This document shows, piece after piece, positions 3,842 to 25,998 of a stretch of 64,000 nt of DNA. Below the pieces are notes generated by a model that was given only the letters and a program-made list of their open reading frames with translations, did no database searches and had not been told where the DNA came from. Every line of letters starts with the position of its first letter. Position 1 is the stretch's first letter. Where the stretch lies: NCBI RefSeq assembly GCF_040267685.1, contig NZ_CP158367.1:1240001-1304000 (forward strand), given 5' to 3'. This DNA comes from Proteinivorax tanatarense. GTDB lineage: Bacteria > Bacillota > Proteinivoracia > Proteinivoracales > Proteinivoracaceae. The translations under genes were made by a program, and so were the position numbers.

Positions 3842-4798
3842 ATGCTTAGTAGCTTAAAAAATGAACTAAACTTAGAGAGCATGTTGGCTGAGGTGGAACT
3901 GCGATTATTAGATTACACAAAGAGTGATAGTGAAAAATCCCAGTACTTATCTCAGTATTTAATAAAAAAAGGAGGTAAAAGGTTAAGGCCTCTTCTTGTA
4001 ATTTTGTGCGCAGAAGGAAGAAATGAAAAAGACGTAATAGATGTAGCGGTAGCAGCAGAACTTATTCATACTGCTTCACTTGTACATGATGATATAGTAG
4101 ATGATTCCCCCAAAAGAAGAGGTGTAGATACAATAAATAGTCTTTTGTCAAATTCCTATGCCGTATTAACTGGAGATTTTTTGTTTGCTAAGGCTTTTGA
4201 AATACTATCAAAATTTCAAGAAAAAAAGGTTTTAGAAACATTTACAAAAGCTATTACTGCTATGAGCATAGCTGAAATAGAGCAACTGAGCAATAAGAAT
4301 AACTTAAAAAAGACCTATAAACAGTACTACAGTGAAATATATGGTAAAACTGGAGCTTTGTTATCGGCGTGTTGTAAAAGCGGAGGAATGATAGCAGGTT
4401 ATAGAGAACGGGAAATTATTGCCTTAGAAACATATGGCAAGGAATTAGGCTTTTCTTTTCAGATTACAGATGATTTGTTAGATGTTGCGGGAAATGGTGA
4501 CGAGTTGGGTAAACCTAAGTTTCAAGACCTAAAAGAGGGCCATATTACTTTGCCTATTATAAACCTGTTAGCAAAAGATGGGCAGTTAGACGTTGCCGAA
4601 ACCCTAAAAGAATCAAGCAACATTGATTTCTCCGTGGTAAGCAAACTAATAAAAGAAGGAGAAGTAGATGAATATTGTTATAACTTAGCAGTTGCTCATG
4701 TAGATAATGCTTTGAAAAGCATTGAGTGTTTTGGCAATGAAAGTCAAAGAGATGCTTTGAACAAACTAGCAAAGCTTACATTAAATAGAAGTCAATAA
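3842..4798 (+). CDS. Long-chain polyprenyl diphosphate synthase
   Basis: Trans-isoprenyl diphosphate synthase, 318 aa. KGGKRLRP (43-50) binds isopentenyl diphosphate. The first aspartate-rich motif DDIVD is at 83-87 and the second, DDLLD, at 210-214, before KPKFQDLKEGH. The residues just before the first motif (TASLVH) are small rather than aromatic, which in this family allows long products (about C30-C35 or more). Last gene of the ferredoxin operon, convergent with a YtpB-like terpene synthase that would use a C35 diphosphate. Heptaprenyl diphosphate synthase component II is the closest well-known role; no component I gene is in the window. Confidence 0.88.
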   Translation: MLSSLKNELNLESMLAEVELRLLDYTKSDSEKSQYLSQYLIKKGGKRLRPLLVILCAEGRNEKDVIDVAVAAELIHTASLVHDDIVDDSPKRRGVDTINSLLSNSYAVLTGDFLFAKAFEILSKFQEKKVLETFTKAITAMSIAEIEQLSNKNNLKKTYKQYYSEIYGKTGALLSACCKSGGMIAGYREREIIALETYGKELGFSFQITDDLLDVAGNGDELGKPKFQDLKEGHITLPIINLLAKDGQLDVAETLKESSNIDFSVVSKLIKEGEVDEYCYNLAVAHVDNALKSIECFGNESQRDALNKLAKLTLNRSQ

Positions 4799-4819
4799 TT
4801 GAGCTGAGAATAAAATAAA

Positions 4820-4862
4820 TCAAAAGAGAGCAAGTTTTAATAAAAAACTTGCTCTCTTTTGA
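4820..4862. terminator. Bidirectional terminator between convergent prenyl genes
   Basis: Perfect 19-bp inverted repeat (4820-4838 and 4844-4862) with a 5-nt loop and T-rich ends on both strands. It serves both the polyprenyl synthase gene and the convergent YtpB-like gene. Confidence 0.85.
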
Positions 4863-4979
4863 TTATTATTGTAGATTAACTGGTTACTTTAACAAGCGGG
4901 GCCACAGCCAGTATAATTTCGTGTGGTTTACTTAACAATAAGTGGGAAAATACATCCGAAGACTTATCGAAGAAATATC

Positions 4980-6008
4980 TTACAAAGTTCTTTTTTCTCT
5001 TAATTTAAGGCAGTAATTATATAAAAGTGTAGTGTCGGACCCAGCCAAAGACAAAAGATCTTTTGCAAATGGGTCTAGATTTTGTTTTTTTACTTTTGGA
5101 TCTGATAAGTACATGGCTAATAGACCACGAACAATTAAAACATGAAAGCTGCTATTTTTAAGTTTTGCAGCTGATTCTAAACTTTTTTCTACAAAGAACT
5201 TTAGCCTATCATTAAGCACTTCTTTTTTAGGATAGTAGCTAATAAAGTTTAACTCTCCTTGCTCTTTGTCTTCATGCTGATCTACTAAGTAGTCTAGCAA
5301 TATATGTAATCCTGTTATCCACGGAAAGTAAGCCTCTTTTATAGATTCCACATCATTTTCTGAAAGATTCTTAGACGAAGCTTCTAGTGCTAATGCAAAA
5401 GTCGTTAAGGTAGAGCCAGTAGCCGCGGCAAATTCCCACCAAAACAAGTCATTGGCATCTTTTTGATTTTCATGCCATGTTATCAAACGATGTTCTCTAT
5501 CATTAATTTCCAGATGCTTTAATGACTGTAAGTCAACATATAATGAAGTTAAATGATAGCAATCCTTTTTTATCTTTGAAAAAGATGGCAAACTACTGCC
5601 AGTCTTAACACATTCATCAACTAAAAAATCTAAATAACCCCCATCGTTTTTTTGAGGATAGTGCTCATAGAAATGATGAGATGTTTCTTTGTCAAAAACT
5701 TCTAACATAGAATTGTGTAGATTTCTAAAAGCCTTCTCACTGTTAACGTCATTGTTATCACATAAATTATCCAAATAATCTGAAATGGTTTGAAAGGCGG
5801 TTATAAAGGGGATGAGATTGTAATTTTTAACGCTATAAATATTTCCACCTAGACAGTGAAACTTTTTATGCTTAATACTTTCTAAAGCCTGCACTTTAAG
5901 CTCTGGCGAAGGGCAATCTTCAAGAAATTCTTTGTAAATAGCTAGTTGGTTTTTAACTTTAGGAAAAACATTATATATAAATTTACTTAATGTTATGTAA
6001 GGTAGCAT
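4980..6008 (-). CDS. ytpB: DUF2600 / YtpB-type terpene synthase
   Basis: Homologue of Bacillus YtpB, tetraprenyl-beta-curcumene synthase, which cyclises heptaprenyl diphosphate to a C35 sesquarterpene. Family signatures: ISDYLDNLCD near 75-84, which takes the place of the classical DDxxD metal motif, and a C-terminal block around LLDYLVDQHEDK followed by LNFISYY. The frame opens at 6050, but the ATG at 6006-6008 has an AAAGGAG site 7 nt upstream and yields the family N-terminus (MLPYITL), giving 342 aa. Convergent with a polyprenyl diphosphate synthase, its likely substrate supplier. No squalene-hopene-type cyclase is in the window, so the final product is unknown. Confidence 0.83.
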   Translation of the reverse strand: MLPYITLSKFIYNVFPKVKNQLAIYKEFLEDCPSPELKVQALESIKHKKFHCLGGNIYSVKNYNLIPFITAFQTISDYLDNLCDNNDVNSEKAFRNLHNSMLEVFDKETSHHFYEHYPQKNDGGYLDFLVDECVKTGSSLPSFSKIKKDCYHLTSLYVDLQSLKHLEINDREHRLITWHENQKDANDLFWWEFAAATGSTLTTFALALEASSKNLSENDVESIKEAYFPWITGLHILLDYLVDQHEDKEQGELNFISYYPKKEVLNDRLKFFVEKSLESAAKLKNSSFHVLIVRGLLAMYLSDPKVKKQNLDPFAKDLLSLAGSDTTLLYNYCLKLREKRTL

Positions 6009-6029
6009 TAAAAAACTCCTTTGCCTTTT

Positions 6030-6046
6030 TAATAATGATATTATTA
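6030..6046. promoter_or_regulatory. Palindrome in the leader of the ytpB-like gene
   Basis: TAATAAT-GAT-ATTATTA is a perfect 7-3-7 inverted repeat about 10 bp upstream of the ribosome binding site of the terpene synthase gene. Possible operator; AT-richness makes chance plausible. Confidence 0.3.
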
Positions 6047-6627
6047 CCATTAAATTATGGTTTTACTATAAATTATATAGTTAAATCAAAAGAAGCCTCT
6101 CTATTTTGGTAGCTGAACACCCTACATTTAAGAATAAATTCCATCGAAAGTATTTATATCTCTAAAGACAAGAGATTATGAGGGAATGTAAACATAAGCT
6201 TTATGACTCTAATCAACAACATCAGTCAAATTTCTAGCAAAAGAACAACTAATTATGTAGTAATTTGACAAACATCTGTTCCCCGGGAAATAATATCTTT
6301 GTTTTAAAAAACTATTAAAGCACTTTATAGTCGTTTAGCATGTAGGTTCACTTAATGAAAAACGTTGTAGCTGGTATTAGAGAGGCAGAGGTGACTTTTG
6401 TGTTAACTCTGCCTATAAAAATTGGAGCGAAGAAGGAGTTCAACAAATTTAGTAGAATTAAAAATTTAAGAAAGATAACAAAATTTTGACACTACACTCT
6501 TCAGATGTAGGAAAGAGGAGGAAACACTTTTTCATTTGGATTATGCCCTGGCGCATACATAGAGGAACAAATCGGGGTTGTTTTTGGGGTCTGTTTAATA
6601 AAACTATATAAAGAGAGGTAAGTAAAG
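6047..6627. other. Non-coding gap upstream of the nitrilase-like gene
   Basis: About 580 bp without a supported gene. It holds a diverged piece of the dispersed hairpin repeat at 6379-6420 and presumably promoters for the two diverging genes. No open frame with a credible ribosome binding site was found. Confidence 0.5.
6379..6420 (+). repeat. Partial, diverged copy of the dispersed hairpin repeat (tail only)
   Basis: AGAGGCAGAGGTGAC...GTTAACTCTGCCTATAA matches the second hairpin and tail of the repeat at 7585-7620 (about 28 of 38 positions), including the imperfect stem GGCAGAG/CTCTGCC. The first hairpin is not recognisable here. Confidence 0.5.
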
Positions 6628-7353
6628 ATGAAGATAGGGTTAGTTTCCTGTTTAATGAAAGATAATGATATAGCACATCAGCTGGCACAAATGGAGCATT
6701 ATGTTTCCAATAATCATAACTGTGATTTAATATGTTTTGGAGAAAGCTTTCTTCAAGGGTTTGAAGGATTAACGTGGAAATATGATGAGGACATCAAAAG
6801 AGCCTTAGCTCAAGACGATCCCATCATTTTTCACATTAGGGAATTGGCTAACAGCTATAACTGTGGCATCTCCTTTGGTTTTATTGAAAAAGAGAATAAT
6901 ACTCTTTATAGTAGCAATATGGTTGTTGATCTAAATGGGAAAATTATAGATGTATTTAGAAGAGTTTCTATCGGATGGAAGGAACCAATTGCAAGTTCAA
7001 TGTATAAGGAAGGTCAAGGCTTTCATACCTTTACTTATATGGATAAAGTATTAGGGGTAGCCATATGTGGTGATGTTTGGCATGACTGTTTTCTAAAAGA
7101 ATTAGAACAAATGAATATGGATGCGCTTCTATGGCCACTCTACGTGGATTTTTCCATTGAACAATGGAATGAATCATTCCAGAAGGAATATGTTGAAAGA
7201 ACACAGAAATTACCTTACCCTGCTTTGATGATAAATAGTTTCGTTGAAAATTCTCAGCGTGCAAAAGGTGGATGATATGTGTTTCATAAAAATGAAATAG
7301 TTTCAGCCCTGTCAGTTGGTAATATAGGAATTTTAGAGTTTGATTTAAATTAA
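6628..7353 (+). pseudogene. Carbon-nitrogen hydrolase (nitrilase superfamily) interrupted by in-frame TGA
   Basis: Amidase/nitrilase-fold enzyme. Glu39 (FGES), Cys147 (AICGDVWH) and a lysine near 118 fit the Glu-Lys-Cys catalytic set. The frame stops at TGA 7273-7275 after RAKGG, yet the same frame continues for 25 codons (YVFHKNEIVS...GILEFDLN) to TAA at 7351-7353. That is exactly the family's C-terminal strand region and gives the usual length of about 241 codons. The simplest reading is a recent nonsense mutation. Selenocysteine is unlikely because the position is not catalytic. The 215-aa product would lack its last strands but keeps the active site. Confidence 0.75.
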
Positions 7354-7446
7354 TATTAGTTATGATTAAAATGTACTAACCAGAGTAGAATAAAAATCAC
7401 GAAAAGGACCTAACCCTATATGTATCAGGGGATAGAGCCTATGGTC

Positions 7447-7620
7447 AGATGCATTAGGTGGTAGGAGATAGATGATAGAAGATAGAAGGTTGAAGATAGA
7501 AAAAGCGCAGAGCGTTTATACGCTGCTGCGCTTTTTTCTATTGATGAAGATTGGACGTATCTTATACTAGATCTTCCTCAAAGAGGTAGGGGTTGATCCC
7601 TGTGTCAACCCTGCCCATAA
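7447..7620 (+). repeat. Dispersed hairpin repeat, copy 1 (complete)
   Basis: About 170 bp. It has a purine-rich start (ATGCATTAGGTGGTAGGAG, then GATAGA motifs), hairpin A at 7501-7537 (AAAAGCGCAGAGCG / CGCTGCTGCGCTTTTTT, terminator-like), and a tail with hairpin B (GGTAGGGGTTGA 7585-7596 / TCAACCCTGCCC 7605-7616). Similar units occur at 14090-14236, 18678-18806 (inverted) and 18911-19042. Together with the flanking AT-rich sequence it fills the gap up to the next gene. Confidence 0.75.
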
Positions 7621-7751
7621 GGTATTAACATTATATGGTTAAAAATTGTATTGTTAAATTTTACATTTTAAAGAAGGTATTTCACAATTTTTGTAAAATT
7701 ACATAATTATAGATAAAAAGAATTTGTAACTTTGGGAGGTATATATTTAAT

Positions 7752-8270
7752 ATGGCTATATTGATAAAAGCAATAAATAGCTGTGAGCCAATAAATGATA
7801 TGGTAATTGAAAAAATGGCAATGGTTTATTGCTATGAAGAACCTGGTCAAATCGAAAGTGTAAAAGAATATTGGTCTAACTGGCTAACAGGTGAAAATGA
7901 AGGTGATAAGCTAACAGTTGTTGCGGAAGATATTAAGGAACAATGTTTAGCTGGAGTTGTCCGTTTTTGGAAAACACCTCACTGTGGCAACAAATGGTTG
8001 ATTGAAGGTCTTGAAGTAATTAAACCTAAAAGGAAAAGTGGATTAGGAAAAAGTATGGTTGAGTACGGCCTTAACTTTCTTAAAAGTAAAGGAGTGGACA
8101 AAATATCTGCTAACATTTCTAGTAAAAACGTTGCATCTATTAAACTACACGAAAGTCTTGGATTTAAGAAGATATCCTCAGGAGCAATCAATAGTTATGG
8201 AGATTTTAGACCGTACATGGATGAGTATCAGCTAGTTTTAGCTAGTTTGTGGGATAATGAAGTATCCTAA
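7752..8270 (+). CDS. GNAT family N-acetyltransferase
   Basis: Acetyl-CoA-dependent acetyltransferase fold, 172 aa. The acetyl-CoA loop is visible as KRKSGLGKSMVEYGL near residues 93-107, and the following strand/helix reads NVASIKLHESLGFKK, the usual C-terminal GNAT signature (NxxSxxLYExxGF). The substrate is unknown. Single gene with a GGGAGG site; upstream lies a hairpin repeat, downstream a non-coding stretch before the ECF sigma locus. Confidence 0.85.
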   Translation: MAILIKAINSCEPINDMVIEKMAMVYCYEEPGQIESVKEYWSNWLTGENEGDKLTVVAEDIKEQCLAGVVRFWKTPHCGNKWLIEGLEVIKPKRKSGLGKSMVEYGLNFLKSKGVDKISANISSKNVASIKLHESLGFKKISSGAINSYGDFRPYMDEYQLVLASLWDNEVS

Positions 8271-8682
8271 TAAATAGCTGAATAACTTCTACAATGTTTA
8301 TGAAGTAAGAAGTCAAACTTTTTATCTATAGTCCGAATACCCAAACTAATTTGGGTTGTTAAAATTAGATAATCACCATAAAATAGAAGTTATTATAAGT
8401 ATTCTAATAGGTGTCGGTAAAAAAGTTATTACTTTTGTTTTCCAAGAAATGTATTTTAAATCTGCTCTAACCTTGCAAAAGTTTCTCCATTACCCCACAC
8501 TAAAAACCTTCTAAACAGTTTTATGAGACGATTCTAACTAGTAGTTTGCTTATAGTTTAGCAGCTCATCAAACTCATGGTTAAAGTTAGCAAAAGAAATT
8601 TGTTTATATTTTTTATTGGATTCTCCTCCCTTCAGGTAATCAAAAGTTAATTCTATTATTTTCGATAAAAGAGGGGGATTCC
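8271..8682. other. Non-coding gap with a repeated 60-bp segment
   Basis: No gene found. Positions 8351-8410 match 15971-16030 at about 48 of 60 positions, which links this gap to the degenerate region after the ABC remnant near 15.9 kb. The remainder shows nothing recognisable. Confidence 0.45.
8351..8410 (+). repeat. 60-bp intergenic repeat, copy 1
   Basis: Shares TTGGTTGTTAAAATTA-like sequence, ATAAAATAGAA and ATTCTAATA with 15971-16030. Both copies are AT-rich and non-coding. Confidence 0.5.
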
Positions 8683-8738
8683 TTTAAAATTATTTCAAAC
8701 ACTTTTGCTTATTGGATCGTTATATTAGTGAATGGCTT
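8683..8738 (+). promoter_or_regulatory. ECF-type promoter of the sigma factor gene (duplicated element)
   Basis: CAAAC (8696-8700), 17-bp spacer, CGTT (8718-8721): the AAC/CGT layout of ECF promoters. The 56 bp around it recur at 10544-10599 with only 2 mismatches, at identical spacing, before the ABC exporter genes. The expected transcription start is near 8728, downstream of the TTG at 8712, which therefore cannot be the start codon of the sigma gene on this transcript. Confidence 0.75.
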
Positions 8739-8771
8739 TTGAAGGAGAATTTAAATGAGTGGGGGATTAGA

Positions 8772-9242
8772 ATGGTACTTGATACGCTTTATCTTCAATA
8801 CAGTAAAGAGTTGAGATCTTATGCTAAAAATTTATCTGGTGTGTCTGAAGCTGAGGATTTAGTACAAGAAACCTTTATTAAGGCTATGGCAAACCTTGAT
8901 GTTTTAAAAACGATACCGGAAAACAAAAAAAGGGCTTGGCTTTATCAGGTGCTGAAAAACAGTTTTATAGACAGAAAAAGAAAAGATAAATCTAACGTTT
9001 CTCTAGAAACTTGTCATGAGCCTAGTTATGAAGAAGATATTTTTTCTAAGCTTGAAGTACAGCAGCTAATGTCCCATCTATCCCCAGAGCTTCAGGACAT
9101 TGTCTTTAAGAAGTATTGGATGGGAATGACCAGTGTTGAAATTGCTAAAAGCCTATCTATTCCCCCTGGAACAGTTAGATATCGCCTTCATAACGCCATA
9201 AAAATTATGAGAAATAAAAAGAGGAGGAGAAAGTATGTCTAA
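8772..9242 (+). CDS. ECF (group 4) RNA polymerase sigma factor
   Basis: Sigma-70 family factor with only regions 2 and 4. Region 2 is visible as LRSYAKNLSGVSEAEDLVQE followed by KRAWLYQVLKNSFID, and region 4 as a helix-turn-helix around MTSVEIAKSLSIPPGTVRYR. The frame opens at TTG 8712, but that codon overlaps the -10 element, so ATG 8772 (156 aa) is chosen. Its own ribosome binding site is weak. A strong GAAGGAG instead precedes an out-of-frame ATG at 8755; one extra G in the GGGGG run at 8761-8765 would join that ATG to the sigma frame. The repeat-protein gene starts 8 bp before its stop. Confidence 0.85.
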   Translation: MVLDTLYLQYSKELRSYAKNLSGVSEAEDLVQETFIKAMANLDVLKTIPENKKRAWLYQVLKNSFIDRKRKDKSNVSLETCHEPSYEEDIFSKLEVQQLMSHLSPELQDIVFKKYWMGMTSVEIAKSLSIPPGTVRYRLHNAIKIMRNKKRRRKYV

Positions 9243-10449
9243 AATAATTGATAACGTGGTCATCTTAGATGTTACAGATATCAGCGAAAAAGCTGTTGAA
9301 GAAATTGAAGGAATTGGTAACGTAGTTATGATGTTTTATAGCCAAGAAACAAAGGAAATTGCATCGCAGCTTAACATAACAAACTTAGTAAGATCATATA
9401 TGGTGCCGAAAGGGGCAGAAATAAAGACGGTAAACGATACTTTTGAGATAACAGAAAATTACCTTAGAGAAGTCACTACTGAGCCATATATAGTTGTAAA
9501 TGGTACTGTTATTATAAAGGGTGATGTTTCTGCTGAGCAGCTTAAAAGTAAAATTAGCGGATTGATTGTTAACGGAACGTTGTTGACTCCTAATAGATTA
9601 GAAGGTGCGGCAAAAGAAAAGCTTATAGATCTAAATGGTGAGACTATAGAGTATGATGAGACGGCAAGAATCATAAAAAGAGATGGACGTATTGACAACG
9701 CTCTTCTAATGTCACTAGATGACGGCAGTAATGTTTGTTTTATCGAGCCTGTGAAGCTACTGGATAATATTGATTTAAAGATAGTGGAAGAAAAATTAGG
9801 CAAGGTAGAGTTTGCAGAAAAGGTGATAATTAAAGAAGAATTTTTCAATGTATTAAAGGATAAAATTAGCAACTTAGATACGGCGAGAATTGAGATTGTC
9901 CCTTCTGATCATTTATTTATTGACGAAAATTTGAATATAGATGAATTAAATATCAAAAGGTTTAATAAAGCTAAAGTTATGGTTAAAGGAAATGTAACGT
10001 TTAGAGGTGATGTAAGCTCTGAGCAAGTTCAAGAGCATATTGATAGCCTAGTGGTGGACGGCATAATTGCCTGTCCTAACAAAATAGTAGAGTGTATATT
10101 TGATATCTGCCAAGATCCACAAACAGAAATTATAACGTATGAAGGTGAAATGATAACAAATAATTCCAAACTTAACATATCAGAATCAATGCTAAAATAT
10201 AAAACTGAAAGTGTAGCAATAATTAACTTTGGAAAGATAGAGGTAGATGATGATGTGAGTGAGGAGTTGCTAAATGAAAAAATTGAAAAATTTTATAACT
10301 ATGGAAAAATATTAGCTGACGAGAAACATCTAGGAATTATCCACGGAAAAGCTAAAACAAATGCAGGTTTAATCATAGATAAAAAAGATGTTAAATTAAA
10401 CGAAAAGCAGCAAAAACAAGGCACCAACGCAGTATATTTAAAGCTTTAA
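9235..10449 (+). CDS. Unrecognised repeat protein co-translated with the ECF sigma factor
   Basis: 404 aa, no signal peptide or membrane helix, so cytoplasmic. No family recognised. About three related blocks are visible: VNGTVIIKGDVSAEQLKSKI (near 86-105), VKGNVTFRGDVSSEQVQEHI (near 250-270) and INFGKIEVDDDVSEELLNEK (near 330-350). Each is a beta-hairpin-like G-x-V/I pattern, then GDVSxEx and an amphipathic helix, then a VxGxI...PN turn. The start overlaps the sigma gene by 8 bp, with AGGAGGAG upstream, so translation is coupled. Position and coupling suggest a partner or antagonist of the sigma factor, but it has no zinc or ASD anti-sigma motif; this is inference. Confidence 0.7.
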   Translation: MSKIIDNVVILDVTDISEKAVEEIEGIGNVVMMFYSQETKEIASQLNITNLVRSYMVPKGAEIKTVNDTFEITENYLREVTTEPYIVVNGTVIIKGDVSAEQLKSKISGLIVNGTLLTPNRLEGAAKEKLIDLNGETIEYDETARIIKRDGRIDNALLMSLDDGSNVCFIEPVKLLDNIDLKIVEEKLGKVEFAEKVIIKEEFFNVLKDKISNLDTARIEIVPSDHLFIDENLNIDELNIKRFNKAKVMVKGNVTFRGDVSSEQVQEHIDSLVVDGIIACPNKIVECIFDICQDPQTEIITYEGEMITNNSKLNISESMLKYKTESVAIINFGKIEVDDDVSEELLNEKIEKFYNYGKILADEKHLGIIHGKAKTNAGLIIDKKDVKLNEKQQKQGTNAVYLKL

Positions 10450-10471
10450 ACTAGATATGCTAAAAGAGAAG

Positions 10472-10502
10472 AGAGAGTTAAAAATAACTCTCTTTTTTTT
10501 TG
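10472..10502 (+). terminator. Terminator of the sigma/repeat-protein operon
   Basis: AGAGAGTTA (10472-10480) / TAACTCTCT (10485-10493) with a 4-nt loop and a following run of at least 8 T. Confidence 0.85.
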
Positions 10503-10543
10503 CAAACCTCCAACCTCCAACTTTTCCAACAAAATATCTTTCT

Positions 10544-10599
10544 TTTAAAATTATTTCAAACACTTTTGCTTTTTGAATCGTTATATTAGTGAATGGCTT
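10544..10599 (+). promoter_or_regulatory. ECF-type promoter of the ABC exporter genes (copy of the sigma gene promoter)
   Basis: CAAAC (10557-10561), 17 bp, CGTT (10579-10582). 54 of 56 bp are identical with 8683-8738, including sequence beyond the start site. Placed after a terminator, so the exporter genes form their own transcript under the same sigma factor. Confidence 0.75.
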
Positions 10600-10638
10600 G
10601 AAGTATAGGGAGTTTTAAATTATAAGGAGGGATCTTAA

Positions 10639-12357
10639 ATGCCTTTTAAGTATCTAAAAAGTATGGTTTGCAAACGAGACTTTACCTTTATAACAATATG
10701 TCTAGTAAGTGAAATAGCTCTGACATTACTAATTGCACAAAAATTTAGGTTGTTGGTGGATAGTGCTATAGATGGTAATTATCAGCTTTTTTACACAAAC
10801 CTTATTGCGTTAATATTGTTTACAGTTTTAATTGCGGTATGTATCTCATTTAGAACCTTTACTATAGGCAAGATAAGTGAAAAAATTACTTATTATTTGA
10901 GAAAGCAAGGCACTGAAAAGCTAGTTGACCTTCCTCAATCTAAGTTAGACAAAATGCACTCTGGTGACGCTATGTCCAGGCTTAGTAATGATTTGCAACT
11001 AGTAAAACAATTTGTAGAAAATGATGGATACTTTTTATTACTTAGACCGTTAATGGCTGTTGCAGTTTTTACCTACTTATTTTATTTAAATTGGCAGTTA
11101 ACTTTAATTAGTTCTGCGGTGTTGCCGGTACTTTACATAATAATGATACAACTAGGCAAGCCCTTAGGAAATTACAGCAAAGAGTTGCAAAGTGAATTAG
11201 CTAATATTAACAAAACCACCCAAGACACTTTAGGCGGGGTTTCGGTAGTTAAGTCCTTTAATTTACAATCTATAATTGATAAAAAATATAGGAAACAAGT
11301 AAAAGCTTCTATTGATAGTGGAATAAAGTTAGATAAAAGAAAGACGGTATTGGAAAGTTTGATGATAGGGCTCTCTTTTCTTCCTCAATTAGTGACCTTT
11401 GGAGTTGGTGGATACTTAGCGGTAATTGGATATTTAAGTGCCGGAAAACTGTTGGCTTTTATTAACTTGTTAAACTATTTGACTTTTCCTATGAAATTGC
11501 TGCCAGGGCATTATGCTAGCTATAAATCAGCTTTGGAAGGACTAAAAAGAATTCAGAAACTTTTAGATGAAGAAAATGAAAGAGATACAGGAAAAGCCTT
11601 TGAAAAAGAGAATGTCGAAACTTTAGTGGAAGTAGAGAACTTAACGTTTGGTTATAATGATAGCCCTGTTTTAAAAAACTTGACATTTTCAGTAAAAAAG
11701 GGTGAGACTGTTGCATTAGTGGGTCCCAGCGGCAGTGGCAAGTCTACAGTCTTTAAGCTGCTTACAGGATTTTATTCAGGCTATTATGGCACTATAAAGA
11801 TGTTTGAAAAAGATATACAAAGTTGGAAGCTGGATAGTTTAAGGGAACAAATTGCTACGGTAAGTCAAGACACCTATTTATTCCCGGAAACTATTGAATA
11901 TAACTTAAAGGTGGGTAATGAAGATTGTTCAGAGGAGGAGATGGTAAAGGCTGCAATTAATGCCAATGCTCATGAATTTATCAAAAATGAACCCTATTGG
12001 TATAAAACTATGATAAAGGAAAGAGGCGAGAATTTTTCCGGAGGTCAAAAGCAACGGTTGGCATTAACTAGAGCTATTGTCAAGAACCCAAAACTTATGT
12101 TGCTTGATGAAGCTACATCAGCTTTAGATACTGAATCAGAAGCTATAGTACAAAACGCCATAAGTAAAGCGATGACAGGTAGAACATGTATAGTAATAGC
12201 CCATAGGCTATCAACTATTGTACAGGCAGATAGAATTTTAGTGCTAAACGAAGGATGCATAATAGAGGAAGGAACACACCAAGATTTATTAGAACAAAAA
12301 GGACTTTATTATGATCTTTACTACAAACAGTTCAAGAAGAAGGGAGGCGTGGCATAA
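10639..12357 (+). CDS. ABC exporter half-transporter A (membrane domain plus ATPase)
   Basis: Type I (MsbA/LmrA-like) ABC exporter half, 572 aa. About six membrane helices occupy residues 1-300. The ATPase domain follows: Walker A GPSGSGKST near 361-369, signature FSGGQKQR near 465, Walker B LMLLDEATSALD near 486-497 and the H-loop in IVIAHRLST. All catalytic residues are intact. Strong AAGGAGGG site. The last base overlaps the next gene (TAATGA), so the two halves are expected to form a heterodimer. The substrate is unknown; the ECF-type promoter suggests an envelope-stress or antimicrobial role. Confidence 0.92.
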   Translation: MPFKYLKSMVCKRDFTFITICLVSEIALTLLIAQKFRLLVDSAIDGNYQLFYTNLIALILFTVLIAVCISFRTFTIGKISEKITYYLRKQGTEKLVDLPQSKLDKMHSGDAMSRLSNDLQLVKQFVENDGYFLLLRPLMAVAVFTYLFYLNWQLTLISSAVLPVLYIIMIQLGKPLGNYSKELQSELANINKTTQDTLGGVSVVKSFNLQSIIDKKYRKQVKASIDSGIKLDKRKTVLESLMIGLSFLPQLVTFGVGGYLAVIGYLSAGKLLAFINLLNYLTFPMKLLPGHYASYKSALEGLKRIQKLLDEENERDTGKAFEKENVETLVEVENLTFGYNDSPVLKNLTFSVKKGETVALVGPSGSGKSTVFKLLTGFYSGYYGTIKMFEKDIQSWKLDSLREQIATVSQDTYLFPETIEYNLKVGNEDCSEEEMVKAAINANAHEFIKNEPYWYKTMIKERGENFSGGQKQRLALTRAIVKNPKLMLLDEATSALDTESEAIVQNAISKAMTGRTCIVIAHRLSTIVQADRILVLNEGCIIEEGTHQDLLEQKGLYYDLYYKQFKKKGGVA

Positions 12358-14084
12358 TGAAAAGATTGATAAATTTTTTCAGTTTGCTAAAGAGGCACAA
12401 AGCAAGGTACTCTTTAGGGGTGCTATTCTCTTCAGTTATTGAATTTAACCAAATATTAATAGCAACAATGTTCATAGTGCTATTTGATGGAATAGTAAAG
12501 CAAGAAATGAGCATGGTTTTAAATGCTATATATTTGTTTTTAGCTGTGGTTTTAATAACTATAGTTTTTGAGTTAATAGCTGTTACTTTAGTTAGGGTAA
12601 CTACTAGAAAAATAATTGGTTCACTAAGGTTAAAGATCTTTGGCAAAATGCTTAGCCTTCCTCAGCGTGAATATAGCACAAACCACAGCGGAGACTTCAT
12701 TTCTAGAGCTACAAACGACATACAAACTTTGGAGCAAACATTAACAGGGCATTTATTAAACTTAAGTAGCTCCCTCTTACCATGCATAGCATGTATAATA
12801 TATATGTTTATTATAAATTGGAAGTTTGCCCTGGGATTGTTGGTTTTGAATTTTGTCAACTTATCTATAATTAGTTTGTTTATTAAACCTATGAAACAAA
12901 AAAGTCAAGACATTCAAAAACAAACAGGTTCTGCAACTGAGGGGATTTCTGATGTGGTAGCTGGAGCTTCGGTTATTAAGCTATATAATATAAAAATAAA
13001 GATGAAAGATAAGTTTGATTTAAAAAATAATAAAGTGTTTCAAAAGTCGATGCAAAGAACTAAAATTGTAGCGTTAATGGAAGGACTAAATAACTTTTTG
13101 AGTCGCTTGGGCTCTATCGGTGTGATTTCAGTAGGAAGTATTTTTGTAATTAAAGGGGATATTTCATTTGGGGAAGTCTTAGCCATGCACCAATTAAATA
13201 CTGCAGTAGGATATTCTTTTGAGACTTTAGGAAGTTTTTTAAATCAAGTTCAACACTCTTTAGCCGGTTTAGATAGGATTAATGAGTTGCTGGATAAAGA
13301 AGATGAACCCCAACGATTTGACAAGATGCCCCAGATAAATACTAATAGTGCGTTAGCCTTAAAGAACTTAAGCTTTTCTTATAATGGCGAAGAGAATGTT
13401 TTAAACGATATTTCCTTTGAAGTAGGACAAGGGCAAAGTGTTGCTATTGTAGGTCCTAGTGGGGGAGGCAAGAGTACCATTTTTAAAATTATTCTTGGTT
13501 TACATCAGTCACAAAAAGGTAGCATGGCCTATATGGGTAAGATGGCTCACGAATATTCAGTTGAAGGTCTCCGAGACCTAACATCTTATGTGCCACAGGA
13601 ACCGTACCTTTTTAGCGGAACTATAAAAGAGAATATTTCCTATGGCAAAAGCCAAGCTACAGACTTTGAAATTTATGCAGCAGCTAAAGCAGCTAACGCC
13701 CATGATTTTATTTTAGATTTAGAAAATGGGTACGATACTATAGTTGGCGAACGGGGAGCCTTTTTATCCGGAGGACAAAAACAGCGTATTGCAATAGCTA
13801 GAGCGATTGTAAAAAATGCTCCAATTTTACTACTCGATGAAGCGACATCTTCGCTGGACAATGAGTCTGAAGTATTAGTACAGGCAGCGATAGAAGAAAT
13901 TATGAAAGAAAAAACCACAATAGTAATAGCTCATAGGCTTTCAACCATAAAAAATGCCGACCGTATATTAGTAGTTGATGACGGTAAAATCGTAGAAAGT
14001 GGCACCCATGAGGAGTTATTAAAAAAAGGTGGCCTATATTCTGGGCTACACAAAGCACAGTTTGAAAATCAACAAGGGGCTTAG
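12357..14084 (+). CDS. ABC exporter half-transporter B (membrane domain plus ATPase)
   Basis: Second half of the exporter, 575 aa, with the same architecture: N-terminal membrane domain, Walker A GPSGGGKST near 366, signature LSGGQKQR near 470, Walker B ILLLDEATSSLD. The Walker B glutamate is present in both partners, so neither ATP site is clearly degenerate, unlike many heterodimeric exporters. Translationally coupled to half A. Two fragments of a closely similar gene survive as a remnant at 15841-15972, showing that this locus was once duplicated. Confidence 0.92.
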   Translation: MKRLINFFSLLKRHKARYSLGVLFSSVIEFNQILIATMFIVLFDGIVKQEMSMVLNAIYLFLAVVLITIVFELIAVTLVRVTTRKIIGSLRLKIFGKMLSLPQREYSTNHSGDFISRATNDIQTLEQTLTGHLLNLSSSLLPCIACIIYMFIINWKFALGLLVLNFVNLSIISLFIKPMKQKSQDIQKQTGSATEGISDVVAGASVIKLYNIKIKMKDKFDLKNNKVFQKSMQRTKIVALMEGLNNFLSRLGSIGVISVGSIFVIKGDISFGEVLAMHQLNTAVGYSFETLGSFLNQVQHSLAGLDRINELLDKEDEPQRFDKMPQINTNSALALKNLSFSYNGEENVLNDISFEVGQGQSVAIVGPSGGGKSTIFKIILGLHQSQKGSMAYMGKMAHEYSVEGLRDLTSYVPQEPYLFSGTIKENISYGKSQATDFEIYAAAKAANAHDFILDLENGYDTIVGERGAFLSGGQKQRIAIARAIVKNAPILLLDEATSSLDNESEVLVQAAIEEIMKEKTTIVIAHRLSTIKNADRILVVDDGKIVESGTHEELLKKGGLYSGLHKAQFENQQGA

Positions 14085-14089
14085 TGGGG

Positions 14090-14236
14090 TATTAGGTGTT
14101 AGAATATAGAATAAAGAAAAAATCGCAGAGCGTTTATACGCTGCTGCGCTTTTTTCTATTGATAAAGTCATGATGTGCCTGTAACAACTGTTCCTCAAAG
14201 AGGTAGGGGTTGACCCCTGTGTCAACCCTGCCCACA
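14090..14236 (+). repeat. Dispersed hairpin repeat, copy 2
   Basis: Same order as the copy at 7447: GTATTAGGTG start, hairpin A at 14117-14155 (CGCAGAGCG...CGCTGCTGCGC plus T run) and a tail with AGGGGTTGACCCCTGTGTCA. It starts a few bases after the ABC operon stop, so hairpin A could serve as its terminator. Positions 14237-14408 hold a further GTGCATTAGGTGATAGA fragment and the promoter region of the peptidase gene. Confidence 0.75.
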
Positions 14237-14414
14237 TGGTAGCAAATTTGGATAGACATACTCAGAAAGAGGTATGATTAAGTGCATTAGGTGATAGACT
14301 CAGGTGGCAGAAGTATGAAAAAATTAAAAACATTTACAATAGACAATTCTTTAACTTAATAAGATAATGATGAATAAGAGAGTCATAAAACTTTAAAAAA
14401 GGAAGTGATTGTTT

Positions 14415-15647
14415 ATGTTGTTATCAAATAGAAATCAGGTGGAAAAGCTGAATCAATGGATTGAAGTAAAATTGACTAAGTTATTACCTAGGCTTATGAA
14501 AAAACATAACCTGGATATGTGGATTGTCACTACTGAGGAGTATAACGAGGATCCGGTATTTCCCTTTTTGGTTCCCCAGCCTTTTTTAAGGGGGGACTTG
14601 GGGTGTATTTTTCCTCCTAGCTGCCCAATTAGTATTTTAGTATTTGCCTTAGAAAATGACAGTCTCAAAAAGTACTGTATATCTCCACTAGGCTATACCG
14701 GCTACCAGCAAATTTTTAACGGTACAAATAAGGTTTGGAATGATGTAGCTACTTTGATTAAAAAGCATGAGCCAAAGCAAGTGGCATTAAACATTTCTGC
14801 AGATATGAATCATGGAAATGGATTAAGCTATAGTCATTATTGTCATTTGATTAAAGATAACGACCAACTGAAAGGCAAAATAACAAGTTCAGATAAACTG
14901 GTGGCAGCTTACCTTAGCACCAGGCTATCAGAAGAGATAGACCACTATAAACAGGTCTGTGAGTTAGCTCAATCGGTAATTGAGGATTCTCTAAAAGAAA
15001 TTAAGGTAAATGAAACCACTGCGCAAGATTTAAGTTGGAACGTAAGAGAAAAATTTGAACAAATGAACCTAAGGTCGTGGTTTCACCCAGCTGTTATGGT
15101 GCAGCGCAAAGGAACTAAAAGGGTTTCCATTGACGCTCCATTAAAGTATGGAGACCTTGTTCATTTAGATGCAGGTGTTCAATATATGGGGTTGTGCACC
15201 GACCATCAACGTCTTTCCTATATAGGGGGTGTAAAAGACCCAGCGTTTTTAGAACTAACTGATAAGATGGAAAAAACAACTCAGCTTCAAGATATAGTAA
15301 TTGAGCAAATAGAAAGCGAAAAGACAGGCAATGAAATTTTGCAAAAAGCTAAAAGGCAAGCTGAACTCCTCAAAATAGACACAAGAATTTACTGCCATCC
15401 TATAGGAGGACATGGTCATGGAGCAGGTCCACTAATAGGGACATGGAACCAACAGGAGTACACAGATAAAGGCAAGTATGAAATAGCAGAAAACAGCTGC
15501 ATGGCTTTAGAGTTAGCAACTGTACAACAACTAAAGGCGTGGGATGGAAAAATAGTTGCAATACCCTTAGAAGAAAACATATTTATAAATAAAACTGAAG
15601 TAATTATAATGGGCAAAAGGCAAACTGAGCTTCTAATTGTTGAATAA
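14415..15647 (+). CDS. M24 family metallopeptidase (Xaa-Pro aminopeptidase-like)
   Basis: Pita-bread-fold peptidase, 410 aa. The five metal ligands of the family can be placed: Asp in HLDAG, Asp in CTDHQR, His in GGHGHGAG, Glu in MALELAT and Glu in PLEENIF. The N-terminal half (about 1-170) is a creatinase-like domain with WIVTTEEY. The frame opens at TTG 14409, but ATG 14415 stands 9 nt after AAGGAAG and is preferred. No signal peptide: cytoplasmic. Own terminator downstream. Whether it cleaves X-Pro peptides or another substrate cannot be told from sequence. Confidence 0.85.
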   Translation: MLLSNRNQVEKLNQWIEVKLTKLLPRLMKKHNLDMWIVTTEEYNEDPVFPFLVPQPFLRGDLGCIFPPSCPISILVFALENDSLKKYCISPLGYTGYQQIFNGTNKVWNDVATLIKKHEPKQVALNISADMNHGNGLSYSHYCHLIKDNDQLKGKITSSDKLVAAYLSTRLSEEIDHYKQVCELAQSVIEDSLKEIKVNETTAQDLSWNVREKFEQMNLRSWFHPAVMVQRKGTKRVSIDAPLKYGDLVHLDAGVQYMGLCTDHQRLSYIGGVKDPAFLELTDKMEKTTQLQDIVIEQIESEKTGNEILQKAKRQAELLKIDTRIYCHPIGGHGHGAGPLIGTWNQQEYTDKGKYEIAENSCMALELATVQQLKAWDGKIVAIPLEENIFINKTEVIIMGKRQTELLIVE

Positions 15648-15652
15648 CATTA

Positions 15653-15687
15653 AAAATGACGAAGCCACACTGGCTCCGTCATTTTTT
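15653..15687 (+). terminator. Terminator of the M24 peptidase gene
   Basis: Imperfect stem AAAATGACG-AAGCCA / TGGCTCCGTCATTTT followed by a T run at 15682-15687. Confidence 0.8.
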
Positions 15688-15805
15688 AGGTATATGAACT
15701 TTTACCACAATATCTTAAGGTATTAATCTCTGACATATACCCCCCTCTGTTTAGACCATCTTTTTTAGCTGAGCGAACTTTATTTGCCATAATAGTTGCT
15801 GATGT
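15686..15805 (-). pseudogene. Remnant of an FMN-binding lipoprotein gene (C-terminus only)
   Basis: Read on the minus strand, about 15733-15805 encodes ANKVRSAKKDGLNRGGYMSE, clearly related to ANKIRSAIQDGLNRGLYVKE at the end of the intact FMN-binding lipoprotein at 19171-19641. Nothing of the rest of the gene remains. The matching segment continues open to a stop at 15686-15688. Confidence 0.7.
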
Positions 15806-15840
15806 AACTAGCCATAGGTGAATTCATTCTTCGGACTAAG

Positions 15841-15972
15841 TGCAATACTTAGCAGGTTTAGATAGAATTTACCAGTTGTTGGATACTAGCTCACAACTTT
15901 AAGCTATAAAAACTGTCTACAGTATATTAGCAGTTGATGACGGTAAAATTGTAGAGAATGGTAGTCATAAAT
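15841..15972 (+). pseudogene. Remnant of an ABC exporter gene (two fragments)
   Basis: 15848-15883 encodes AGLDRIYQLLD, matching 13263-13298 of exporter half B (AGLDRINELLD). 15917-15970 encodes VYSILAVDDGKIVENGSH, matching its C-terminus (ADRILVVDDGKIVESGTH). The roughly 650 bp between them, including the whole ATPase core, are missing. Confidence 0.7.
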
Positions 15973-16030
15973 TGGTTGTTAAAATTAAATTATTACTATA
16001 AAATAGAAATAATTAGAATTATTCTAATAA
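15971..16030 (+). repeat. 60-bp intergenic repeat, copy 2
   Basis: Follows directly on the ABC remnant and matches 8351-8410 at about 48 of 60 positions. Supports an old duplication of the surrounding locus. Confidence 0.5.
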
Positions 16031-16147
16031 ATAGGAGATTTGAAAAAGCTATTTTCGGTTGTTAAATTCAACTTTGCTTTATTAAAGCTTTCTTCTTTCT
16101 GTGGCTTTCTTTATCAAAAAATAAATTAATTAAAGAGGTGGTAGTAA

Positions 16148-16495
16148 GTGAATAAAAGAGAAAAAATTTCAAAAATGCTTATGACATTAATAATTTGCTT
16201 TTTTATTTTTTCTATTATTTATCTAGGAACACTTAGATTAGTTGATGTAAAATTAGCAGAACAATTCGCCGAAGGCTTAAAAAATGAAAGGGAGATTATT
16301 AATACTAATTTTTTGGGTTTAAAAATGCAAACTATGGAAGTTGAGTACAAAAATGAGGAAAAAAAAATGGATATAATCCTCACTGCACATCGTGCCTACT
16401 ACATTGTTTCAGCTGTTATCGCAGGGTTACTGAGCGCTGCAGTGATTTTTCTTGTGCATTTTGTTAGTGGTGCTTTATGTAAGCAAGAAATATAG
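16148..16495 (+). CDS. Unrecognised small membrane protein upstream of ABC genes
   Basis: 115 aa with two membrane helices (about 9-30 and 83-108) and a charged segment of about 50 residues between them, probably exposed on one side. No family recognised. GTG start after AAAGAGGTGG. The ABC ATPase gene begins 12 bp after its stop, so it is part of that operon and may be an accessory subunit or immunity-type protein; this is inference from position only. Confidence 0.6.
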   Translation: MNKREKISKMLMTLIICFFIFSIIYLGTLRLVDVKLAEQFAEGLKNEREIINTNFLGLKMQTMEVEYKNEEKKMDIILTAHRAYYIVSAVIAGLLSAAVIFLVHFVSGALCKQEI

Positions 16496-16507
16496 GGGAG
16501 GAAGGTC

Positions 16508-17247
16508 ATGAAAGAAATTATTAGGTTCAAGCAGTTTTCTTTTGGGTATGTTTCAACGGCTAAAGTTTTAAAGAAAATAAATCTTGAAGTTAAACAAGGA
16601 GAATGCCTTGGTCTTTTAGGGGCTAATGGAAGCGGGAAAACAACTCTTATAAAGTGCCTTCTGGGTGAGCTAAAAGGTATTGGTAGGGTAGAAGTATTTG
16701 GAATGGTTCCTAATATAAGTTCGCCTAAATTTAAAAATGGTATAGGAGTTGTATTTGATCACGACTTACTTATTGATTATTTAACGTTAGAAGAATACTT
16801 GTTTTTTGTTGGAAACACATACAAGCTAAAACAGGTAGAAATAAAAGAAAAAATAGATTATTATCTAGAATATTTTAAGCTACAACAGAGTAAAAAGCGA
16901 ATAATAAAATTTTTCTCTCATGGTATGAGAAAAAAAACTCAAATTATTGCAGCTTTAATTCATAGCCCTAATTTGTTAATAGTTGATGAGCCTACTTTGG
17001 ATTAGATATAGAAATGATATACTATTTAAAAAAATTACTTCTTAAACTTAAAGATGAATGTAATATGACTACTCTAGTTTCAACCCATAACATGTCTTTT
17101 GTGGAAGAGGTATGTGGTAGTATTGCTATAGTTAATGATGGGGAGATAGTAAATCGCTTAAGCAGTGATGAGAAAAGTAGTTTTAACCTGGAGAAGGTAT
17201 TTATGAATAGTGTTAATGAAGGAAATAATCAAAATGTGGATATATAA
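16508..17247 (+). pseudogene. ABC transporter ATPase with a single-base frameshift
   Basis: ATP-binding subunit. Walker A is LGANGSGKTT near 38-47, the signature is degenerate (FSHGMRKK) and Walker B reads LLIVDEPTL. The frame then stops at TAG 17003-17005. Inserting one G into TTGG at 16997-17000 restores DEPTLGLDIEM, the standard D-loop, and the reading continues to 17247 (about 246 aa, normal length) with the H-loop STHNMS. Either a real one-base deletion in a G run or a sequence error. The 165-aa product would lack the D- and H-loops and be inactive. Confidence 0.8.
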
Positions 17248-18619
17248 ACTAATTATTAAGGAGAAACTCTATTCTTTTAAAAACGTAATTCGGATTTTGT
17301 TAGTTAGATATCCCTTCCAACTCACTTTAGGTTTAGTAGCACTTGCTTTTGTATTCTATGCAACATATCAAATAATAAATAATTTTTATGGAGGATTGAT
17401 GGCAACAGACGATTCTAGCATAATTTTATTTATTTATTTTCTAAAGCGTGAGTTTATATTATTATTTGGAATAAGCTCCTTATCAATATTAATCTTGACA
17501 GATAAAAGTGTTAAAATCTATTGGCAGATAAATAAGCAACTTCCTATTAGGCCGGATACAGTGTATTTTGCTCACTTAACTTTATATTTTACTTTACTGT
17601 CTTTACCATCGCTATTGTTAATAACAATTTGTGCATCGATATTAAAAGTAAGTGTAATTAAGACACTTGTTCTATTATTATTTTATGTTGCGATTACTCT
17701 TGGATATATTTTCTTATGTTTTAGCATTTCTAAGCTTATTAGTTCAAAAACTACAGATAAACAATGTTATTTTATTGCATGTGTTATAACAGTAGTTACT
17801 TTGTCTATAGGCTTTTATTATTATCTTGACAACTTATCATTAAACTCAATATTAAAGGGTAATAATTTCTTGAGTTACATAATATTGTTGTCCCCTAATA
17901 TATTAGGGATACTATTAATGTATACGTTAAGAAAAGCAGATATTAGCTTGGTAGAGAATAAGCGGTATTTATATCAGTATGCAGGTGCGCCTAAAATATT
18001 AAAGAAGATTGAAAATATATATTTACGTATTTTAGTATTAGAAGTTAAGCGTAATTGGAAAGTATATGGTGCTTTTATATCAATACCTGTTACTTTAGGG
18101 GCAATCAATACTTTTTTCTTACAGCATCCTGATTATTCACTCGTTTTTTTTACGCTAGCTTCAACGGGAACTGTTTCAATAGGATTCTATAATAGTTACA
18201 TAGAATCTTTTAAAATTCTTCCACTAAAAGAAGAGGTGAATTTGCTGCTAAGGTGGGTATTTATGGTATTTCTTATTAGCCTTCTTTACATTTTATTATC
18301 CTTGACTTTTGCAAACTATATGCTTATTTCAGATTACATAGAAATAATATTGTTGTCGACAATATTTTTTATAATATGTTATTTAACTAAGATACCATTA
18401 ATAAAGAATGGTAAGGAAAACGACAAATTTTGTTCGCTTGGAGTGTTTGGGCCATTGGTGTATAAGTTTTTTTTTGAGTCACTTAATATGATCTATAGCA
18501 TGATTTTTAGTTCCGAAATTAATTATATCTATTTTTGTTCTTTAGTGACTTCGGGGTTAGTTGTATTAGTTTTTTTTGAGTTAAAAGACAAAAATGATAC
18601 AAAATATTTAAGCTCTTGA
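17234..18619 (+). CDS. Multispanning membrane protein, probable ABC permease
   Basis: About 461 aa and strongly hydrophobic, with roughly 10-12 predicted membrane helices, no enzyme motif and no recognised family. It overlaps the end of the frameshifted ATPase gene, so it is most simply the permease of that transporter. The frame opens at GTG 17210, but ATG 17234 with GAAGGA upstream is the better start. If the ATPase really is broken this permease may have no partner, unless another ATPase substitutes. Confidence 0.65.
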   Translation: MWIYKLIIKEKLYSFKNVIRILLVRYPFQLTLGLVALAFVFYATYQIINNFYGGLMATDDSSIILFIYFLKREFILLFGISSLSILILTDKSVKIYWQINKQLPIRPDTVYFAHLTLYFTLLSLPSLLLITICASILKVSVIKTLVLLLFYVAITLGYIFLCFSISKLISSKTTDKQCYFIACVITVVTLSIGFYYYLDNLSLNSILKGNNFLSYIILLSPNILGILLMYTLRKADISLVENKRYLYQYAGAPKILKKIENIYLRILVLEVKRNWKVYGAFISIPVTLGAINTFFLQHPDYSLVFFTLASTGTVSIGFYNSYIESFKILPLKEEVNLLLRWVFMVFLISLLYILLSLTFANYMLISDYIEIILLSTIFFIICYLTKIPLIKNGKENDKFCSLGVFGPLVYKFFFESLNMIYSMIFSSEINYIYFCSLVTSGLVVLVFFELKDKNDTKYLSS

Positions 18620-18677
18620 TAGGAATATTATTTATTCAAATAAACAGCTTTCAAGGTAAAACTTTTTTCAGTATAAC

Positions 18678-18806
18678 TTTAACACATCCTGGGCATCCCC
18701 TACCTATATGAATAATACCTAGTTAGGCTAAATCGAACAAGCACAATAACGTATAAACGCTTTGTGCTTGCTTTTTCTATACCTCCTACCAGCTAATGCA
18801 TCTTAA
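18678..18806 (-). repeat. Dispersed hairpin repeat, copy 3 (inverted)
   Basis: The reverse complement reads GATGCATTAGCTGGTAGGAGG, then GAAAAAGCAAGCACAAAGCG..., then a tail with GGTAGGGG, in the same order as the copy at 7447. Hairpin A is diverged and its stem is rebuilt with other bases. Tail to tail of this copy and the next spans about 365 bp. Confidence 0.6.
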
Positions 18807-18910
18807 TTATGCTGAGAAGCGTTATCGGCCTTATGATTATCCATTCCACCTTGGTCGTCAAGCTTGATGTGTATTATGGGTAGCAACTCTTGAAGTCTTA
18901 TACAAGCTGA

Positions 18911-19042
18911 GAGATAGGGGATAGATGATAGAAAAAGCACAGAGCGTATTACGCTGCTGCGCTTTTTTTCATTTAACTAAGACACGATGTGTCCTATTCT
19001 AGATTTCTTCACAGATGTAGGGGTTGGACCTCTGCGCTCGAC
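18911..19042 (+). repeat. Dispersed hairpin repeat, copy 4
   Basis: GAGATAGGGGATAGATGATAG start, hairpin A GCACAGAGCGTATTACGCTGCTGCGC plus T run, then ATGTAGGGGTTGGACC in place of hairpin B, whose right arm is decayed. Confidence 0.65.
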
Positions 19043-19067
19043 TATTTAAATTTTATCGTGCTAATTT

Positions 19068-19093
19068 GTCATCCAGAACGAAGTGAAAGATCT
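19068..19093 (+). repeat. GTCATCC...GATCT repeat (source of spurious HPERSERS translations)
   Basis: GTCATCCAGAACGAAGTGAA followed by AGATCT is a diverged copy of a short repeat widespread in bacterial genomes; its false translation reads CHPERSERS. A second, also diverged copy is at 38775-38800. Confidence 0.6.
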
Positions 19094-19170
19094 ATGGACT
19101 TTAAAAACGCATTCAACTATACTAGACAATTAATTAACCTGTCTACTGTTATAGCCTGTTTTAGGGTTAA

Positions 19171-19641
19171 TCATTCTTTAACGTATAAACCTCTATTTAG
19201 TCCATCCTGTATAGCAGAACGAATTTTGTTTGCTCGCAGAGTGGCGGCGGTGAAACCGTCGATATCTTCTGCAAGATTGACAGGGTCATACAATTCCTCT
19301 AAAGCCTCGGTTATATTTGTTCCTTGTATAGACTCTAGCACTTGTTCATGCTGACTAGTTAGTGACTCTATTGTTTCATCTTCAGTTTCTAAATAATCTT
19401 GTCCGTTGTAGTATAAATGTCTAAAACTTATACTTTCGATGTTATTGTCATTTAACGAAAATTGCACATTTACTTGGATTTCATCGCCATCGATAAATAC
19501 ACCTCTATATGTTCCATCCTCATAGTTTCCCACAGCAGGTGTTTGGTTTTCATCAACTCCCTGCTGTGGAGCACCAGGCTGACAACCAATTAATAGAAAC
19601 GTAATAGCGAATAGTGATGTTAATATTTTTAAGTTTTTCAT
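19171..19641 (-). CDS. FMN-binding domain lipoprotein
   Basis: Secreted lipoprotein of 156 aa. The signal peptide has lipobox LLIGC, with Cys20 as lipid site. The FMN-binding domain (NqrC/RnfG-like, PF04205) occupies the rest: YEDGTYRGVF at its start and DGFTAATLRANK near 131-142, where the Thr of the D-x-x-T-x-A-T-type motif would be covalently flavinylated by an ApbE enzyme (family knowledge; no apbE here). Probably an extracytoplasmic electron carrier. Its upstream region is cut by the IS21 insertion about 230 bp away. A decayed relative remains at 15686-15805. Confidence 0.85.
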   Translation of the reverse strand: MKNLKILTSLFAITFLLIGCQPGAPQQGVDENQTPAVGNYEDGTYRGVFIDGDEIQVNVQFSLNDNNIESISFRHLYYNGQDYLETEDETIESLTSQHEQVLESIQGTNITEALEELYDPVNLAEDIDGFTAATLRANKIRSAIQDGLNRGLYVKE

Positions 19642-19928
19642 GGTCTACACTCCTTTTGGGCAAATGGTATTTTTATGGTGTCCTTACTTACAGAATTTAT
19701 TCAAGCATGTTCTTGTTTAAAGTATTAAGAGCAGTTTAGGATAGTGTTTTAGTTACCTAAAATATTTAATATTAAATGTGAGGTTGAAGGTGATGCAAAA
19801 CTTTAACATAGTGTTAATATTAAAAAAAAGGTTTTAATGTAAAAATAACGAACAAAATTAAATAGGGTGTAACTGGCAAGTAGAATTGGAGAAATTTTGG
19901 CAATTAATTTTCCCTAACCTTTTTCCAG

Positions 19929-22245: not shown

Positions 22246-22387
22246 TTCTCATACCTCCTCTGATAAATTAACTCTTTAATTTTATCAGAAGGGGTATTTT
22301 TTTAGTAGATAACTGGAAAAAATTCTCCGTTTCTATTTGCCAAAATCTCTCCATTTTAGTTTACCATTTACATAGGGAGGTGTTGAC

Positions 22388-24906: not shown

Positions 24907-24948
24907 TAAACTGCTTACTGAAAAATATCAAACAAGGAGTGTTTGTTT

Positions 24949-25956: not shown

Positions 25957-25998
25957 TAAACTGCTTACTGAAAAATATCAAACAAGGAGTGTTTGTTC

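Follow-up and report, generated by a model that had tools for sequence, protein, structure and literature searches.

Boxes of the AAC/CGT type and autoregulation are common among ECF sigma factors and are established hallmarks of these proteins (PMC8103513). In the autoregulated ECF modules (group IV), a sigma factor with regions 2 and 4 only is preceded by a promoter of its own gene, with an AAC -35 and a CGT -10 element, and followed by a partner gene. The locus described here, within a 64,000-nucleotide stretch of the Proteinivorax tanatarense genome (the window), shares all of these traits; however, the partner here, a soluble protein with a repeat fold, belongs to no named family, and the strict promoter motif is found in relatives only before the sigma factor's own gene. 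Soluble partners encoded next to the sigma gene are also found in ECF systems with soluble anti-sigma factors (ZAS type, RpoE/ChrR; Asp23-type partners of ECF286/ECF292, PMC8999054), but the partner in the window has no ZAS or Asp23 Pfam match, is about 400 aa long and looks solenoid-like. Its predicted model has the repeating strand-turn-helix outline of leucine-rich-repeat-like solenoids (BT_1240, 3sb4), although Foldseek gave nothing significant (best E 0.05), VIA Z-scores reach at most 5.1 (to insulin-receptor L domains), and no sequence match, including any to a Pfam LRR family, was found; the fold matches to LRR proteins and insulin-receptor L domains are too weak for a family to be assigned. 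Finally, the locus shares with the two-gene ABC exporters of the TM287/288 kind and with BmrA/Sav1866/MsbA-like half-transporters two adjacent half-transporters, each with a membrane domain and an ATPase. It differs from them in that both ATP sites look intact and in having an ECF promoter, which its own paralogues do not have.

A sigma factor, its partner and an exporter

The features of the locus are listed in Table 1. In the sigma factor, Sigma70_r2 and r4_2 lie above the Pfam cut-offs (region 4 with PF08281/PF04545 matches), regions 1 and 3 are missing and nothing else exceeds the cut-offs; no NCBIfam equivalog cut-off is reached. This architecture, with an AAC -35 / CGT -10 promoter before its own gene (8698-8724), is that of an ECF sigma factor, and in a tree including ten other ECF sigma factors the repeat-partnered sigmas fall on one side of a single branch, with moderate support (79/87). 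Orthologous sigmas align from the methionine at 8772; were translation to begin at the TTG further upstream (8712), the coding region would run across the -10 element. A 19-codon open reading frame (MSGGLEWYLIRFIFNTVKS, window 8755-8814), in a frame different from that of the sigma gene, begins 17 nt ahead of the sigma ATG and has a good ribosome site, AAGGAG; a leader peptide or translational control is possible.

Table 1. Features of the sigma factor/exporter locus (window coordinates)
Feature	Position	Strand	Evidence
Promoter copy 1 (sigma promoter)	8679..8738	+	60-nt repeat; orthologous promoter in 18/18 relatives
Copy 1 boxes: -35-like AACACTT, N13, -10-like CGTTATA	8698-8704, 8718-8724	+	
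ECF sigma factor, 156 aa	8772..9242	+	Pfam PF04542 1e-14, PF08281 1e-11
Repeat-fold protein, 404 aa	9235..10449	+	Soluble, strand/helix solenoid model; family profile 1.4e-25
Intrinsic terminator, 17-bp stem and U tract	10464..10501	+	-18.3 kcal/mol, z -5.1
Promoter copy 2 (exporter promoter)	10540..10599	+	95% identity to copy 1
Copy 2 boxes: AACACTT, N13, CGTTATA	10559-10565, 10579-10585	+	
ABC exporter half-transporter 1, 572 aa, membrane domain and ATPase	10639..12357	+	PF00664 1e-38, PF00005 3e-34
ABC exporter half-transporter 2, 575 aa	12357..14084	+	PF00664 1e-34, PF00005 3e-31
Terminator-like hairpin with T run behind the exporter, where a local intergenic repeat begins	14118..14155	+	-16.0 kcal/mol, z -3.6

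The repeat gene overlaps the sigma gene by 8 nt. Its 404-aa product reaches no Pfam or NCBIfam family cut-off, and no anti-sigma family (ZAS, Asp23 and others) matches any of 18 family members at E<=0.01 in Pfam; matches to RHH_8 and Thioredoxin_3, each below cut-off and in just one of the 18 members, were discarded. The AlphaFold2 model, a fairly confident one (pLDDT 86, pTM 0.64), consists of repeating strands and helices, and no part of the protein is clearly membrane-spanning (19-residue hydropathy peaks at 1.4).

A strong terminator follows the repeat gene, ahead of the exporter promoter, and splits the sigma/repeat operon from the exporter, which thus needs a promoter of its own. The start codon of the second half-transporter gene lies on the stop codon of the first, a 1-nt overlap. 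An ABC_membrane and an ABC_tran domain are present in both products; the Walker A/B, signature and H motifs are intact in half-transporter 1, as are the ATPase motifs in half-transporter 2. The adjacency of the two half-transporter genes and their overlap make the heterodimer of the original prediction plausible, yet both ATP sites look intact.

The hairpin behind the exporter is part of an intergenic repeat of 120-160 bp that is present in three copies within 11.5 kb (window 7480-7640, 14100-14241 and 18912-19026). Each of the first two copies opens with a strong terminator-like hairpin, and between these copies lie an acetyltransferase gene and the whole module; the tail of the repeat has many short matches elsewhere in the genome (2838-2846 kb).

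Two copies of one promoter

The earlier observation was of two 56-bp stretches, 8683-8738 and 10544-10599, with two mismatches between them and CAAAC-N17-CGTT in each. This is exactly so (54/56 identical), both mismatches fall in the spacer, and the repeat extends to 60 bases (8679-8738 and 10540-10599) with three differences (57/60 identical). Copy 1 precedes the ECF sigma gene, and 39 bases separate the end of copy 2 from the start codon of the first half-transporter gene. A DNA search of the whole 3.09-Mb genome gave only these two full copies (E 3.7e-40 and 3.4e-21), besides two 28-base fragment matches, and TTTCAAAC-N15..17-CGTTAT occurs in the genome only at the two promoter copies. These counts bear on the idea that an intergenic element, dispersed or mobile, came by chance to stand before both genes and is what the repeat represents. 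Other local intergenic repeats and an IS21-type element are indeed present nearby, but an element with two full copies in 3.09 Mb, and with a conserved core that is a promoter before orthologous sigma genes in other families, fits this idea so poorly that we regard it, already disfavoured, as highly improbable.

In each of the 18 relatives whose available DNA reaches far enough upstream, AACACTT followed by CGT precedes the orthologous sigma gene, and the AAC-to-CGT spacing is 17 in every one; the search demanded AACACTT and CGT and allowed spacings of 14-22, so that presence and spacing are the only independent results. The longer element CGTTATA is found in 16 of the 18 (the exceptions being CGTCTAT in L024 and CGTTTTC in L047). 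Eight of the 18 relatives have near-identical sigma genes, leaving about six independent lineages. Some spacer positions are partly conserved across the family promoters. Just past the likely transcription start, a GTGAAAGC-like stretch (window 8725-8740) is partly conserved and occurs in most of the relatives L041-L059.

Exact AACACTT-N13-CGTTATA is present once per genome in 14 relatives, each time at the site before the sigma gene (coordinates compared), and twice in the genome of the window, before the sigma gene and before the ABC exporter. No second exact copy was seen in any relative examined, and the motif is absent at ten loci of other ECF sigma factors. The family comparison shows that the CAAAC/CGTT named at the outset is too short and that this longer motif is the specific one. 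As a finder of regulon members, the use proposed for it, bare CAAAC-N17-CGTT performs at chance level (16 genome sites versus 38 for the pattern read backwards) and was abandoned. Sites with one mismatch to the longer motif were likewise rejected as extra members: they number 13 in 17 genomes versus 29 in the reversed control, which allowed up to one mismatch, and each of the three in the window's genome overlaps an open frame. At this strictness there is thus no indication of additional regulon members.

The footprint in 18/18 relatives and the sole exact copy in 14 genomes support the proposal that the sigma factor drives its own gene, and the same footprint together with the promoter copy argues that the exporter would be under its control as well. 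Copy 2 might also be a fossil of the duplication, now unused or recognised by a different sigma factor, with the exporter driven from elsewhere; weak sigma-70-like matches throughout the AT-rich stretch (40 versus 27 in shuffles) would suit such a history. Copy 2 nevertheless retains every invariant position of the family promoter, with its two differences within the 56 bp confined to the spacer, and the strong terminator blocks read-through into the exporter, which makes a fossil unlikely.

The orthologous promoters also provide an internal yardstick that separates duplication from convergence. At 27 weakly conserved family columns the two window copies agree at 26, as compared with 26-52% agreement between the window sigma promoter and its orthologues at the same columns. 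Such identity where the family shows no conservation points to a duplication, as originally proposed: convergence on a binding site would not be expected to yield it, and copying would. On the comparative evidence as a whole, we consider it very probable that the sigma factor controls both promoters and that the second arose by duplication, a judgement that does not extend to the role of the repeat protein.

A conserved sigma/repeat pair

Homologues of the repeat protein were found first in G150 and then at 19 loci in Butyrivibrio, Lacrimispora, Eisenbergiella, Catonella, Christensenella and related genomes, the G082 locus being reached via its sigma gene. A single-sequence pattern scan for homologues found none, so that detection required a family alignment; with the window protein left out of its construction, the family profile recovers that protein with the value given in Table 1, and the G082 protein with 2.4e-25. 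The 608-aa matches in G161 and G096 were set aside as weak (E about 1e-5), the frame in G096 resembling a larger, unrelated protein. Plasmid records (L041 protein as query) and phage records (window protein as query) yielded no repeat protein. In the pairs L050-L059, from genomes labelled Catonella, Christensenella and Lachnospiraceae, the sigma proteins are 85-97% identical and the surroundings differ, which could reflect either mobility of the pair or mixing in some of the metagenome bins.

An ECF sigma gene lies directly upstream of the repeat gene in all 21 loci, the window included. This constant adjacency and the 8-nt overlap suggest that the two genes are co-transcribed. Because of its position and its constant pairing with the sigma factor, the protein is probably a soluble sigma regulator. 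Possibly it is instead the effector, the main product that the switch makes in quantity, the exporter being an added output here. The single exact promoter per genome in 14 relatives stands before the sigma gene itself, so that the sigma factor's only recognisable target there is its own operon, which keeps this account alive; in addition, no conserved gene follows the sigma/repeat pair in relatives, and the repeat protein matches neither an anti-sigma family nor any other family in Pfam and is unlike the anti-sigma factors known so far. Anti-sigma genes, however, usually occupy just this place, immediately downstream of the ECF gene and overlapping it (PMC8103513), and weaker promoters with mismatches would have escaped the search. 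A main product is thus, in our opinion, the less probable role, though one to be taken seriously, and it opposes only the last step of the mechanism proposed below.

Probable recruitment of the exporter in one lineage

The exporter has family-native paralogues: two pairs in its own genome (59-63% identical), one pair in the congener G001 that is syntenic with the 738-kb pair of the window's genome, and a more distant one in G002. No AACA-N15..17-CGT promoter precedes any of these paralogues (two own-genome pairs, one each in G001 and G002). Neither the repeat protein nor a sigma factor of comparable score was found in G001-G004. In G001, the blocks flanking the locus (window 3842-6050 and 19171-27018) are again found together, with their order inverted, and the 13 kb between them (window 6050-19171) are replaced by unrelated genes including three phage-integrase-family genes. 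A 13-kb difference between syntenic flanks places the module in a variable island. An IS21-type IstB and transposase pair (window 19929-22245) adjoins this island, and a protein with weak leucine-rich-repeat matches (LRR_EndoS, LRR_4; window 23737-24906) is syntenic in G001. Base composition, at 32-35% GC in the module and 34% in the window, was uninformative on whether transfer was recent. The simplest reading is that the exporter was recruited to the regulon in this lineage, loss elsewhere being the alternative; the exporter link rests on one genome.

We propose that the sigma factor guides RNA polymerase to AACACTT-N13-CGTTATA promoters. Copy 1 would drive its own two-gene operon, encoding the sigma factor and the repeat-fold protein and ending at the terminator, and copy 2 would drive the two-gene exporter operon, otherwise beyond reach behind this terminator. 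Together with its promoter, the sigma/repeat pair would be an old unit across Clostridia, which the exporter, a family-native paralogue, would have joined in this lineage only, through the copying of a promoter segment of about 60 bp. The most likely role of the repeat-fold protein is a cytoplasmic one, either holding the sigma factor or sensing its signal, and release would then switch the exporter on. The duplication, the terminator, the conserved promoter, the constant pairing and the lineage-specific exporter link are all read directly from the DNA; we infer the recognition of both promoters by one sigma factor and the role of the repeat protein. The "stress module" of the original prediction is an assumption as regards both the signal and the exporter substrate. 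More tentatively, and at somewhat less than even chances in our estimation, the locus may represent an undescribed class of ECF unit, in which a sigma factor and a cytoplasmic strand/helix solenoid regulator or sensor use a private, near-invariant promoter that mostly serves the unit itself and captures genes when copied, here an exporter.

The two copies would show the growth of a regulon by the physical copying of a promoter, a step that is usually only inferred. The same promoter precedes the sigma gene in many gut and rumen bacteria, with the copy before a drug-exporter-like pump in this genome alone. The role of an unnamed family of repeat proteins thereby becomes directly testable, and the widespread sigma/solenoid pair, with its highly specific match of sigma factor and promoter, may be usable as an orthogonal part.
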